Positions 22,699-41,473 of a stretch of 64,000 bases of DNA are shown here, piece by piece. The stretch's first letter is position 1. Each line of letters begins with the position of its first letter. Position numbers and translations under genes: made by a program. This DNA comes from an uncultured Bacteroidota bacterium. Its GTDB lineage: Bacteria > Bacteroidota > Bacteroidia > Bacteroidales > GWA2-32-17. The DNA is taken from assembly GCA_903837285.1 (NCBI GenBank), contig CAILUD010000203.1, positions 1 through 64,000 of the forward strand, given 5' to 3'. The notes beneath the pieces are model-generated. The model was not told the DNA's origin. It saw only the letters and a program-made list of their open reading frames with translations, and did no database searches.

Positions 22699-23703
22699 TT
22701 AAATAAGTATTTTCCAAATTTCATCTTTTAATTCGTTAATACCATCACCAACTGCAGATGAAAAAAACAAATAAGGAACGCCTATTTTTTTAATTTCCTT
22801 TTTAATTTCCTTATTAATTTCTTTTGTTAATTCTTTATCAAGTAAATCTGATTTTGAAATACCAAGTATTTTTTTCTTTGTTAAAAGTTCCGGATTATAC
22901 TTTTCAAGTTCATTTAAAAGAATTTTATATTCTTTCATAATATCCTTACTATCAGCTGGAACTAAGAAAAGCAAAATTGAGTTACGTTCGATATGTCGTA
23001 AAAATCTTAAACCAAGTCCTTTCCCTTCAGAGGCACCTTCAATTATTCCCGGAATATCTGCCATAACAAATGACTGATAATCTCTATAATTTACAATTCC
23101 AATATTTGGAACTAAAGTAGTAAAAGGATAATCGGCAATTTCAGGTTTAGCGGCAGAAACAACCGACAATAAAGTACTTTTTCCGGCATTTGGAAAACCA
23201 ACTAAACCAACATCGGCAAGAATTTTTAATTCCAGAATATTCCAGCCTTCTATTGCTGGCTCGCCAGGTTGAGCATAACGTGGAGTCTGATGAGTAGAAG
23301 ATTTAAAATGAGAATTCCCTAAACCACCTCTCCCACCTTTACGAAGAATAATTCTTTCACCGTGTTTTGTTATTTCAGCAATAACCTCATTTGTTTCTGC
23401 ATCTTTTGCAACTGTACCAAGTGGAACCTGAACAATCACATCTTCGCCTTCTGCACCAGTTGCATTCTTAGCACTTCCACAAGAACCGTTTTCAGCATAA
23501 ATATGTCTTTTATATCGCAAATGTAACAATGTCCACATTTGGCTATTGCCCTCAAGTATAATATGACCACCTCTTCCGCCATCACCACCATCTGGCCCAC
23601 CTTTCATTGTCCTTTTATCGCGATAAAAATGACGCGATCCAGCACCACCTTTCCCCGAACGCGTACATATTTTTACGTAATCTATAAAATTATTTTCTGG
23701 CAC
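22699..23703 (-). CDS. obgE: GTPase Obg/CgtA
   Basis: Essential ribosome-associated GTPase that acts in 50S maturation and stress control. The N-terminal Obg fold (1-158) is glycine-rich ([14 protein letters not shown]). The G domain has P-loop [12 protein letters not shown], switch region [10 protein letters not shown], and [16 protein letters not shown]. At 334 residues it lacks the C-terminal OCT extension seen in Gram-positives. It lies 93 bases from adk; an inverted repeat occupies the gap. Confidence 0.95.
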
Positions 23704-23739: not shown

Positions 23740-23795
23740 AAAACTATTTTGTCCAAATAGATACTTCACTATGTTCAGTATGACAAAATAGTTTT
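23740..23795. repeat. inverted-repeat element between obgE and adk, relative of the 41053 repeat
   Basis: A perfect 14-base inverted repeat, AAAACTATTTTGTC at 23740-23753 and its complement at 23782-23795, encloses TAGATACTTCACTATGTTCAG. That core resembles the right half of the elements at 61254-61339 and 41053-41158 (TAGATG.TTCGAC...CTCA..(A/T)(G/A)ACA). It lies just past the adk stop, so it may also terminate transcription from either side. Confidence 0.6.
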
Positions 23796-23796
23796 G

Positions 23797-24375
23797 TTAC
23801 TTCACAAATTTCCTCATTACATGTGAAATGTCAGAATATACTTCAGCTTCTGTTTGCATTCCATTAATAGGAAATGATTTTCCTTGTTTTTTATAATATT
23901 TAGAAACAGGTTTTGTTAAAGAACGGTAAACATTTATTCTATTTGTTATAATTTCAATATTAACATCGTCCGCTCTTCCAGACTTCTCGCCACGTAATAT
24001 AAGTCTTTTCTTTAGCACCTCTTCGTCAACATCGAGCATTACAAGTAAATCTACTTTTGTAGAATGAACTAATAACATTTCGTCTAATGCTTCGGCTTGT
24101 GCTTGTGTTCTAGGAAAACCATCAAAAATAAAACCTTTTGCATTTTTATTTTTTTCAATAATCTTACTAATCATACTTATTACAACTTCATCCGGCACTA
24201 ATTCACCCTTATCCATTCTTTTTTGAGCTTCTACACCAAGTTCTGTCTGAGCAGCAATTTCTACTCTTAAAATATCACCTGTTGAAAGATGAATCAACTC
24301 AAATTGCTTAATTAAATGCTCTGATTGAGTACCTTTTCCAGAACCCGGAGGTCCAAATAAAACAATATTCAACAT
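23797..24375 (-). CDS. adk: adenylate kinase
   Basis: Converts ATP and AMP to two ADP in the cytoplasm. P-loop GPPGSGKGTQ (8-17), AMP-site region HLSTGDILR, and the family signature FDGFPRTQAQAE are all present. At 192 residues it is the short form with a small lid and no zinc-binding cysteines. It follows hpt by 8 bases, forming a purine-nucleotide operon. Confidence 0.96.
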   Translation of the reverse strand: MLNIVLFGPPGSGKGTQSEHLIKQFELIHLSTGDILRVEIAAQTELGVEAQKRMDKGELVPDEVVISMISKIIEKNKNAKGFIFDGFPRTQAQAEALDEMLLVHSTKVDLLVMLDVDEEVLKKRLILRGEKSGRADDVNIEIITNRINVYRSLTKPVSKYYKKQGKSFPINGMQTEAEVYSDISHVMRKFVK

Positions 24376-37199: not shown

Positions 37200-39173
37200 A
37201 TGAAAAGAATTGCCCTTATAGCTTTAATAATTTTTAGTAGCAACTGCATTTTTGGGCAGCAAGTTTCTATTAAGGATAGAATTAAAGCTGAACACATTTT
37301 TAATTTTGGAGTTTATATACATTGGAAAGATAAATCATTTCAGAAAGAGGCAGATAAATTTACAATTGGCGTATATGGTTCAGACACTTTAATGTACAAT
37401 TTATTAAAAAAGATATGTAAATTCCGAATACTTAGGTGGAAAAAAATTGAAATTATTCATTTTAATAGTCTTAAAGAATTAAAGTTCGTACCTATATTAT
37501 ATGTAAGTTACCAAAATAATTCAGAAGTATCACTTATCGACTCTGTAATTAGCGCATGGCCTACATTACTTATAACAGATAGCTGCAACAGCTACAGAGG
37601 TGTAATGATAAATTTTTTCCCGCCAAATTCTATAAAAAGGGTTGAAATTAACAAAGAGAATATCTCTGCACGTGGAATGAAGGTTAATCCATTATTGTAC
37701 GTTGTTGCAAAAAAATACGAAGAGGACTGGGAAAAACTTTATCAAAAAAGTGAAACCGATTTAGCATTAGAAAAAGAAACAGTAGAACAACAATCTTTGA
37801 TATTAAAAACTCAGGAAAACAACATAAAACAAAAGGAAGAACATATTTTAAAACTTGGTTCAAATATTTTACAAAAAGAGGCAGACCTTAAACAAAAACA
37901 AGAAAATCTAAATAAACTTCAAAATGATATTTTAGAGAAAAATAAATTAGTTACAATAACTTCAGCAACGTTAAAACGACAGGAGATTGAACTTCTAAAG
38001 CATCAAATTGAAATTACAAGTACTCAAAAATTATTAAAAGAACAAATTGCAGAATTTGAGATTCAAAAATCAAAAATAGATATCCAAAAAGAAGAAATTG
38101 CTTCTCAACAAGGTTTAATCGATTCTCAAAAATCAAGTCTTAATAAAAGCATTGCCGATTTAAAAAAACAACAACTTGTTTTATATTTTGTATTAGTTGC
38201 CCTATTATTATTTGGATTAATGATTGTAGCGATATTCAGGAGTTACAAAATAAAGAAAAAAGCTAACAAAGTTTTGAATGCAAAAAATATAGAAATTTCC
38301 AAACAAAACACAGAGATAATTCAACAAAAAGAAGAAATAGAAACTCAAAGAGATGAAATTGAAGCTCAACGTGATTTTCTGGCTCGTCAGCGCGACCAGA
38401 TATTAACACAAAACAAAGATATTACAGACAGTATTACTTACGCAAGCAAAATACAACATGCATTGCTCCCTCCAGAATTATTAACAACACAACTTTTTAA
38501 AGATCTTTTTGTTTTTTATTTACCAAGAGATATTGTTAGTGGCGACTTTTACTGGACAAGAAAGAAAGGTGACATTATTTATATTGCTGTAGCAGACTGC
38601 ACTGGGCATGGAGTTCCGGGAGCATTTATGAGTATGCTTGGAGTAGCATTTTTAAATGAAATTCTTGACAGATATAATAAATTATCTGCAGGATCGCTAT
38701 TAGATAATTTGCGGGAAAAGGTAGTTTATTCACTTCATCAAACTGAAAACGAAGGTGGCTCAAAAGATGGGATGGACATTTCGATAGTTGCATATAATGA
38801 AAAAACAAAAATTGCAGAAATTGCAGGTGCTAATAATGCTGTATATCTTGTTAGGAAAAATGAATTAACAGAATTTAAACCAGATAAAATGCCTATTGGC
38901 ATTTATTATGGCGACGAAAAACCATTTACCAGCAATACTATTAAAGTTGAAAAAGGAGATTTTTTCTATATGTTTTCAGATGGATATCCCGATCAGTTTG
39001 GTGGAGAAAAAGGGAAAAAATTCAAATACAAGGCTCTTAAAAACTTATGCTTAAACTTAAGCAAATTATCATCTATTGAACAAGAAAAAGAAATTGAAAA
39101 CACTTTTGTTAGCTGGAAAAAACACTATAATCAGGTTGACGATATTTTATTTTTGGGAATTAGATTTGAATAA
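37200..39173 (+). CDS. SpoIIE-type PP2C phosphatase with YfiR-like sensor
   Basis: Membrane-bound serine phosphatase, probably acting on an anti-anti-sigma or related phosphoprotein. A signal peptide (1-19) precedes a periplasmic YfiR-like (DUF4154) domain (about 25-170). A long coiled coil (175-325) leads to one TM helix (326-346), then a second coiled coil carrying ITDSITYASKIQHALLPP, then the catalytic domain (430-657). Metal-binding residues lie in SGDFYW, VADCTGHGVPGAFMSM, DGMDIS and FSDGYPDQFGG. It is 5 bases from a second phosphatase gene. No partner anti-sigma gene is present here. Confidence 0.88.
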   Translation: MKRIALIALIIFSSNCIFGQQVSIKDRIKAEHIFNFGVYIHWKDKSFQKEADKFTIGVYGSDTLMYNLLKKICKFRILRWKKIEIIHFNSLKELKFVPILYVSYQNNSEVSLIDSVISAWPTLLITDSCNSYRGVMINFFPPNSIKRVEINKENISARGMKVNPLLYVVAKKYEEDWEKLYQKSETDLALEKETVEQQSLILKTQENNIKQKEEHILKLGSNILQKEADLKQKQENLNKLQNDILEKNKLVTITSATLKRQEIELLKHQIEITSTQKLLKEQIAEFEIQKSKIDIQKEEIASQQGLIDSQKSSLNKSIADLKKQQLVLYFVLVALLLFGLMIVAIFRSYKIKKKANKVLNAKNIEISKQNTEIIQQKEEIETQRDEIEAQRDFLARQRDQILTQNKDITDSITYASKIQHALLPPELLTTQLFKDLFVFYLPRDIVSGDFYWTRKKGDIIYIAVADCTGHGVPGAFMSMLGVAFLNEILDRYNKLSAGSLLDNLREKVVYSLHQTENEGGSKDGMDISIVAYNEKTKIAEIAGANNAVYLVRKNELTEFKPDKMPIGIYYGDEKPFTSNTIKVEKGDFFYMFSDGYPDQFGGEKGKKFKYKALKNLCLNLSKLSSIEQEKEIENTFVSWKKHYNQVDDILFLGIRFE

Positions 39174-39178
39174 AAAAT

Positions 39179-41473
39179 ATGTATAAATTACTAATTACTT
39201 TTTTGTGTTCAATTATTTTTGTGTTTAATACAACAGCACATACTCTAATTAAATCAGAATTAATTAAAAAAATTGAAAAAGAAAAGAGTATACTAAAACG
39301 TATCGACTTAATGGTTGATTTGGCAGAACTTAATATTGAAGGCGATTCTGCAACTTTTTTCAGTCAAGTAAAAACCATTAAATCTTTATCAAATGAAAAT
39401 AATTACGTTAAAGGTATTGCCGAGTGCGAATACCTTATTGGCGATTACTATTACACAAAAGGGAAATTAGAAGTATCCCATTCTTATTTTAATAAAGCAA
39501 AAGATTTATTTATTAAAATAAAAAATAAAAAAAGACTTGCTGACACATATACATTCATTGGAATAATTTATAGCGAACTTTCAATGTTTGACAAGTCACT
39601 TAATTTCTATATTAGTTCAGAGAAATTATACGAAGAGTTACACGATACCTCTGGATTAATTCAATCAGATATAAATATCGGAGCTACTTATTCCGACATT
39701 CAATTATATGAAAAAGCTAAAAATTATTACGAAAAGGCTCTGAATCTTTCATTAGCAACAAATAATAAAGAAAACACTGCATATTGTTATGCTAATCTTG
39801 GTGTATGTCAAAAAATAACAGGAAACTATGCTAAAGCTCTTGAATACTATATTAAATTAGAAACTATTGCAGAAGAGCTATCGAATAAATATTTAATAGG
39901 AACAGCATATCTGAATATGGCCAATCTTTTTATAAACATGAACGAACCATATAAAGGATACCAGATAGCAAAAAAATATTTAAAGCTTTATGCAAATTCT
40001 ACTGAACCTGCTACACTTTATTATGGATATAATGTTCTTGGAAATTCTGAAATCGATCTAGGTGAATTTAATCAAGGAATAAAACATTTATTAATTTCAT
40101 TAGATAAGGCTAAAGAAATTAATTCGGGAAATTTAATTCTTCAAACTTCCAATAATCTGGCAGATGCTTACGAAATAATAAATGATTTTAAACAAGCATA
40201 TTTTTATAAAAAAATCACCTACCAATTATCCGACTCACTATTTAAAGCTAATAACATTAAACAGATGACTGATATTGAGACAAAATATCAGACTGAAAAA
40301 AAAGAACATCAAATAGAAGTACTTAACAAAGATAAAAAGTTACAGGATCTTGAATTAGAAAAAAAACAAAAAGAACTAAGAAACAGAAACTATATAATTT
40401 TTGGTATAGCAATAGTCTTGCTAATTATTATTTTCTTTTCATCGGCACTATACAAAACCCTACAACTTAAACGAAAAGCAAATTTTCTTTTAAAACAAAG
40501 AAATGTAGAAATTCAACAAAAAAACGAAGAAATTATGGCGCAACGAGACGAAATTCAGGCTCAGCGTGACGAAGTAACAAATCAAAGAGATAAAATAGCA
40601 ATACAACAGAAAAAAATTACCGACAGTATACTTTATGCTAGCAGAATTCAAAATGCAGTACTCCCTCCTACCGAAATTTTAAAAGAATACTTACCTGAAC
40701 ATTTTATTTTATATAGACCAAGAGATATTGTTAGCGGAGATTTTTACTGGATACACCAACAACAAGCTAAAATATTTATTGCAGCAGCAGATTGCACAGG
40801 ACACGGCATTCCAGGGGCGTTTATGAGTATGATGGGTGTTGCATTTTTAAATGAGATTATAACAAAACTTAATAATCCAACTGCCAGCGAAATATTAGAT
40901 CAACTTAGAGTAAACGTAAAACGTTCATTACATCAAACTGGAAAAACCGGGGAACAGAAAGACGGTATGGATATTTCGCTTTGCATTATAGATAAAGACA
41001 AAAAGCAACTTGAGTTTGCCGGAGCAAATAACCCACTTTACATTATTCCTTCTGTCATTCTGAAGGAATGTGAAGAACAACTTTCTTGCGCAGCAAAATC
41101 TAGAATAGATGCTTCGACGGAGCCTGCACTGAGTAACGCGAATGTGCTCAGCATAACAACGAGGTTAATCGAACTGAAAGGAGACAAAATGCCAATTGGA
41201 GTTCATTTAACCGACGAAAAACCTTTTACTAACAATGTTTACGAATACAATTTAGGCGACACCATATTTCTATTTAGTGACGGTTATAACGACCAATTTG
41301 GAGGACCACACGAAAAGAAGTTTATGCAATCAAGATTTAAGCAATTATTACTTGATATTAATTCTAAACCATTATCTGAACAAAAAAACGAATTAGAATA
41401 TAGCATAGAACGATGGATGGGTAAGCACGAACAAATTGACGACATTCTAGTTATTGGTGTACGAATAGTTTAA
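39179..41473 (+). CDS. TPR-containing SpoIIE-type PP2C phosphatase with in-frame repeat insertion
   Basis: Second membrane phosphatase. A signal-like N-terminus is followed by a TPR solenoid (about 40-350), a TM helix (405-425), a linker with TDSILYASRIQNAVLPP, and a SpoIIE/PP2C domain (about 500-764) with SGDFYW, AADCTGHGIPGAFMSM, DGMDIS and FSDGYNDQFGG. All catalytic motifs are intact. Between NNPLYI and ELKGDKMPIG the loop is 35 residues longer than in the gene upstream; residues 625-660 are encoded by a repeat element. It probably acts with its neighbour; whether the insertion is tolerated is unknown. Confidence 0.87.
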   Translation: MYKLLITFLCSIIFVFNTTAHTLIKSELIKKIEKEKSILKRIDLMVDLAELNIEGDSATFFSQVKTIKSLSNENNYVKGIAECEYLIGDYYYTKGKLEVSHSYFNKAKDLFIKIKNKKRLADTYTFIGIIYSELSMFDKSLNFYISSEKLYEELHDTSGLIQSDINIGATYSDIQLYEKAKNYYEKALNLSLATNNKENTAYCYANLGVCQKITGNYAKALEYYIKLETIAEELSNKYLIGTAYLNMANLFINMNEPYKGYQIAKKYLKLYANSTEPATLYYGYNVLGNSEIDLGEFNQGIKHLLISLDKAKEINSGNLILQTSNNLADAYEIINDFKQAYFYKKITYQLSDSLFKANNIKQMTDIETKYQTEKKEHQIEVLNKDKKLQDLELEKKQKELRNRNYIIFGIAIVLLIIIFFSSALYKTLQLKRKANFLLKQRNVEIQQKNEEIMAQRDEIQAQRDEVTNQRDKIAIQQKKITDSILYASRIQNAVLPPTEILKEYLPEHFILYRPRDIVSGDFYWIHQQQAKIFIAAADCTGHGIPGAFMSMMGVAFLNEIITKLNNPTASEILDQLRVNVKRSLHQTGKTGEQKDGMDISLCIIDKDKKQLEFAGANNPLYIIPSVILKECEEQLSCAAKSRIDASTEPALSNANVLSITTRLIELKGDKMPIGVHLTDEKPFTNNVYEYNLGDTIFLFSDGYNDQFGGPHEKKFMQSRFKQLLLDINSKPLSEQKNELEYSIERWMGKHEQIDDILVIGVRIV
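41053..41158. repeat. 106-bp inverted-end repeat inside the SpoIIE gene
   Basis: The ends, TGTCATTCTGA (41053-41063) and TCAGCATAACA (41148-41158), are near-perfect inverted repeats. The interior reads GTGAAGAAC ... CAAAATCTAGAATAGATGCTTCGAC, closely matched by 61254-61339. Base composition is more GC-rich than the host gene. The element reads through in frame without a stop. Confidence 0.75.

Follow-up and report, generated by a model that had tools for sequence, protein, structure and literature searches.

Palindromic repeats that reside within bacterial protein genes have been described in other systems. The Rickettsia palindromic elements (RPEs) constitute palindromic families that occur both between genes and in frame within protein genes, whose products are predicted to accommodate the encoded segments in both fold and function (PMC10969869). 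Short hairpin repeats of the GTAG/CGTC type of REPs are also found within ORFs in several species, and the recB genes of Xanthomonas carry different REPs at about one site, the sites otherwise being different; in the part of that report considered here, no cassette swapping is described (PMC3733652). The repeat analyzed in this study is likened to RPEs in behavior only, being an in-frame palindromic repeat present in genes and between them, and its family is tagged with TGTCA instead of GTAG/CGTC. RPEs, which belong to a different phylum, use many unrelated genes as sites, whereas the loops of Bacteroidota described below occupy a single turn of one paralogous domain family, with many unrelated repeat families and apparent exchange between paralogues. 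A literature search, which largely excluded subscription journals, found no account of this pattern in Bacteroidota. In-frame palindromic repeats themselves are already known; the recurrent hotspot and the swapping look new.

Results

The stretch of DNA analyzed (the window; 64,000 nucleotides) belongs to genome G000, an uncultured Bacteroidota bacterium, and the gene of interest is located on its contig C203. The ORF at 39,179–41,473 (+) encodes a TPR-SpoIIE (PP2C) phosphatase of 764 amino acids, with TPR repeats at the N-terminus, a membrane/coiled-coil segment, and a SpoIIE-type PP2C phosphatase domain at the C-terminus. Its Pfam matches (TPR_12, 1e-24; SpoIIE, PF07228, 1e-17), metal-binding Asp residues, and fold were all consistent with a SpoIIE/PP2C phosphatase. 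Every invariant catalytic residue (D521, D538, D701, D754/D755, and TGHG) was retained and the core is under purifying selection, with a dN/dS of 0.11–0.15 between G000 and G004, in agreement with the intact catalytic motifs noted in the first-pass annotation. An AF2 model of the catalytic region (residues 470–764; 40,586–41,470, +) showed a mean pLDDT of 90.8 and a pTM of 0.86. The best solved structural match was SiaA (6k4e; TM 0.93 by target length, Foldseek E 1.7e-23), and the fold and catalytic residues were common to the SiaA/RsbU/SpoIIE PP2C phosphatases (6k4e, 5ucg, and 3f7a). However, SiaA has only a short turn, in which chain residues 198 and 204 border the position of approximately 40 residues of the window protein. 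The pLDDT across these residues was approximately 47–54, and the loop is thus predicted to be a disordered surface appendage on a confident core. The upstream SpoIIE gene (DUF4154-SpoIIE; 37,200–39,173, +) has a plain short turn at 38,826–38,900; the distance between the NN(P/A)xY and DKMPIG motifs was 12 residues in this paralogue and 47 in the window protein, as had been reported. Approximately 100 matches to the window protein were present per genome in G000, G001, G003, and G004, several of them as tandem arrays.

The captured repeat is 106 bp long (41,053–41,158, +) and encodes residues 625–660 in the β-turn between GANNPLYII and LIELKGDKMPIG; its coordinates, ends, codons, and frame were as first annotated. 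It comprises a 24-nt REP-like unit, GTCATTCTGAAGGAATGTGAAGAA (41,054–41,077, +), identified by a pattern scan as a loop-specific variant, and a right-hand portion (41,107–41,158, +) with an end, ...GCTCAGCATAACA, that is imperfectly inverted. The termini, TGTCATTCTGA and TCAGCATAACA, are inverted matches at 9 of 11 positions. As to a MITE-like origin, the ends are thus imperfectly inverted, and a target-site duplication was not clear when the window junctions were inspected by eye. Three of the six frames of the element are open, including the one used. BLASTn against its own genome placed the element at nine sites. The best non-self match showed 95% identity across all 106 bp (E 6e-43), and the others covered bases 1–50 or 1–54 (E 4e-14 to 6e-8), together with weaker partial ones. 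From the nine sites and the full-length match, the element was concluded to be a genuine repeat beyond chance.

The corresponding 23-nt unit, GTCATTCTGARYGNARYGAAGAA, was found at approximately 61 places in G000, 51 in G003, and 37 in G004, with few in G001 and G002 and zero in a reversed control. Coding or intergenic placement was taken from sampled regions with simple ORF calls: 37 of the 38 sampled sites of the 23-nt form were intergenic, the exception being a two-mismatch match. One intergenic unit in the window, GTCATACTGAACATAGTGAAGTA (23,762–23,784, −), lies between the ORFs at 22,699–23,703 and 23,797–24,375 and has a compensated TAC/GTA stem. Among 72 distinct 23-mers, the stem pairs 6–22, 11–17, and 12–16 covaried above all 2000 shuffles, where the pattern used to draw the set fixed some stem positions (6 and 22) and left 11, 12, 16, and 17 free. 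This covariation supports the view that the 23-nt unit is a structured hairpin. The family shares several features with REPs/REPINs, namely an imperfect palindrome with a conserved stem, mostly extragenic placement, and several inverted (+/−) pairs spaced by approximately 40 bp. A T preceded the unit at all 38 sampled sites, which makes the terminal tag TGTCA and not the GTAG/CGTC of REPs/REPINs. With regard to a linked RAYT transposase, the genome has seven Y1_Tnp genes, and no REP unit was seen in their retrieved flanks (up to approximately 1.5 kb). The 24-nt form, which has a larger hairpin loop, occurred 13 times in G000, G003, and G004, every time in a SpoIIE loop.

Orthologues of the window gene were found in three states: REP-like (G000 and G004), empty (G003), and a GGCAGT repeat (G001). 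The G004 (CAIQJL01) orthologue shows 89% protein identity and carries the element, ending ...GCTCAGCATGACA, without a 24-nt stretch that is present in G000 (41,119–41,142, +) and in the loop of a paralogue on contig C167. The G003 orthologue (74% protein identity) has a plain 4-residue turn, GANNPLYVVKNNELIELKGDKMPIG, and in that of G001 (MENF01, Bacteroidetes bacterium GWA2_32_17) this position is taken by an unrelated repeat of the GGCAGT type. These states support a recent gain of the element, in line with the later insertion proposed at first; the gain after the orthologue split stands, but an intergenic copy need not have inserted directly into the window gene. As every genome is a metagenome bin, repeats might have misjoined contigs. 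There is next to no chance that such assembly artefacts produced the loops, since frame and domain are continuous on both sides in many genes from independent bins, the G000 and G004 orthologues agree, and the inserts are only about 30–150 bp.

We compared 208 SpoIIE domains, taken from four genomes and from 77 loci in named MAGs of the Bacteroidota/Chlorobiota; loops were extracted by HMM and assigned to families by purpose-written motif rules. The turn was 4–7 residues long in 90 of the 208 domains and up to about 50 in the remainder, and this β-turn housed no fewer than ten mutually unrelated families of repeats or palindromes, including REP, GGCAGT, AAAGT, AAGGTT, ATTGGC, GATTTGACAAC, CCTAACAGG, GAGACG, and GATGCC. 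Of the 208 loops, 54 were classified as "other long", in which additional palindromes are mixed with ordinary conserved loops; L172, L216, L234, and L197 are examples of the latter, with non-repeat sequence. The many unrelated families at the same turn in other paralogues and genomes had been overlooked in the first-pass annotation.

Several of the families also occur outside the loops. The 31-bp perfect palindrome GATTTGACAACTTTTnAAAAGTTGTCAAATC has eight copies in G001, four intergenic and four in SpoIIE loops, and a search of three sister genomes returned none. G001 is rich in GGCAGT repeats, G004 has fewer, and G000 and G003 have none, which fits the observation that G001 loops carry GGCAGT most. 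The GTAGAGACG palindrome of G005 (Bacteroidia NC_groundwater_1710) was located in a SpoIIE loop at all 12 of its places. No intergenic copies of the 24-nt REP and GTAGAGACG variants were detected in their own genomes, and capture from intergenic DNA is therefore only indirectly indicated for these two. In G001, a second SpoIIE β-turn holds the palindrome AACAAGGGGGCATGCCCCCTTGTT, sometimes doubled (L188, L189, L192, L193, L198, and L203). The filling of this second turn argues for structural tolerance and makes a site-specific target sequence less likely. A P-loop NTPase-like protein of G004 (P0001; L277:1–1818 on C231) contains two in-frame GGCAGT-type repeat stretches, indicating that capture extends beyond SpoIIE proteins. 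In a loop of GWF2_33_38 (L053:5647–5866), a REP-like unit lies within an AAAGT-type repeat, as if nested.

The closest relative of the window element is the loop of a SpoIIE gene on C167 (31,850–34,180), with which it shares both the turn and the reading frame. The two are approximately 95% identical over the element and approximately 62% in the flanks, the switch being located at the element ends. In the G003 and G004 orthologues of the C167 gene, the loop consists of AAAGT repeats in place of REP. A tree of 113 cores was built with the loop left out, by a quick search that used no mixture model. On this tree, a minimum of 39 loop-state changes was needed; GCAGT alone required seven changes in seven genes. 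Loop families sorted by genome and not by orthologue group. Among close paralogues (flanks 76–86%), loops were either 89–99% identical or clearly different (0.30–0.76). Three G001 loops with GATTTGACAACTTTTnAAAAGTTGTCAAATC have in common an identity run of approximately 80 bp that includes non-element flank, with gene flanks of 61–71%, and the intergenic copies of GATTTGACAACTTTTnAAAAGTTGTCAAATC in G001 do not have the flank bases common to the loop copies. The tree, the loop identities of paralogues, and the common flanks of the G001 loops together favor copying between paralogues after capture. Gene conversion is probably the route, judging from the identity patterns; recombination itself was not observed.

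An alternative is that each loop was struck independently by an intergenic palindrome, without exchange between paralogues. In its favor are the unrelated families scattered over the tree at one site, the intergenic copies of several families in the same genome, and the identity between C203 and C167 that stops at the element ends. Such repeated direct transposition is nevertheless unlikely. Although three frames of the window element are open, 15 of the 16 REP loops, scored by exact motif, hold the repeat in a single orientation and frame; the remaining one (CTCATTC, L209) is also read in that frame. In addition, the variant longer by 1 nt is common to the loop copies and absent from the intergenic sites, and the flank shared by the G001 loop copies is missing from the intergenic ones. 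For the window gene, copying from one paralogue to another is likelier than direct insertion, since the 24-nt variant is confined to SpoIIE loops and the nearest relative resides in a SpoIIE paralogue.

Folding of the loops was evaluated against dinucleotide shuffles, because a comparison of hairpin energy with windows of the same gene was confounded by G+C and was discarded. Many loop families folded above the shuffles, with median z values of −2.6 to −6.7 in several, and the density of perfect 11-bp stems in G001 loops was approximately 70-fold that of coding DNA elsewhere. These values could suggest that hairpins are selected in mRNA or DNA at the loop, for example through translation pausing or mRNA stability. 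We regard such selection as highly improbable: plain-turn orthologues are common, perfect 11-bp stems were absent from the sampled G000, G003, and G004 loops, and copies of GTAGAGACG show one-sided mismatches. Furthermore, the window copy showed no excess folding (z 0.13 and −0.8), nor did several other REP loops, although the copy of the sister species still folds (z −2.6). The palindromy of the window copy is decayed, and the hairpin is consequently a property of the source repeats that is not maintained here.

The loops might alternatively serve the protein, for instance by insulating about 100 paralogues from cross-talk. The large paralogue family in each genome and the conservation of some long loops between species would agree with such a role, but repeat loops are shared by paralogues of one genome and vary from orthologue to orthologue, and the window loop is predicted to be disordered. 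Its dN between G000 and G004 (0.079, with a dS of 0.051; 37 codons, too few for firmness) was not below that of the core (0.05–0.06). A role in protein function is accordingly quite improbable, and the encoded loop is most likely neutral. The domestication of a mobile repeat proposed earlier is thus supported with respect to an in-frame, intergenic-type repeat in a surface turn, but not with respect to a function of the loop.

Discussion

Here, we propose that intergenic palindromes are captured in frame at a tolerant turn and then spread among paralogues, or replace one another, in a cassette-like manner, probably by short-tract gene conversion; we consider this reading probable. The β-hairpin tip of these SpoIIE phosphatases would tolerate nearly any in-frame insert, and short palindromic repeats from intergenic DNA, brought in by a presumed original transposition step, may have been captured at this tip many times over. 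Once filled, the loop would behave as a small cassette that is copied into, or replaces, the loops of other paralogues of that genome. The short-tract gene conversion that we regard as the probable route could be anchored by the conserved coding motifs flanking the loop. The 106-bp element of the window may accordingly represent a cassette that the lineage leading to G000 and G004 acquired and that was exchanged later with the C167 paralogue. Cutting of palindromes by SbcCD was considered as the driver of exchange and rejected, as SbcD was above the cut-off only in G001 and not in G000 or G004. The bins of G000 and G004, in which the SbcD match is missing, are listed as 100% complete, and G001 has one match.

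Compared with the precedents, the present case adds one structurally defined turn of a large paralogue family that recurrently takes up many unrelated repeat families, with replacement between orthologues. A bolder reading, which we hold only tentatively and think rather doubtful, is that an active cassette site exists at the SpoIIE turn, where captured palindromes drive their own copying and replacement between non-orthologous paralogues via gene conversion. If this were true, a non-coding repeat would spread through a protein family at one structurally tolerant point.

Caution is needed in annotation, in that repeat-derived loops could pass for functional species-specific insertions. At the same time, the loops provide, for one enzyme domain, a natural series of states in which the same loop is empty, filled, or refilled by many unrelated repeats. 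Such a series makes the conversion of repeats to protein, the tolerance of a β-turn, and the exchange of very short tracts between paralogues testable.
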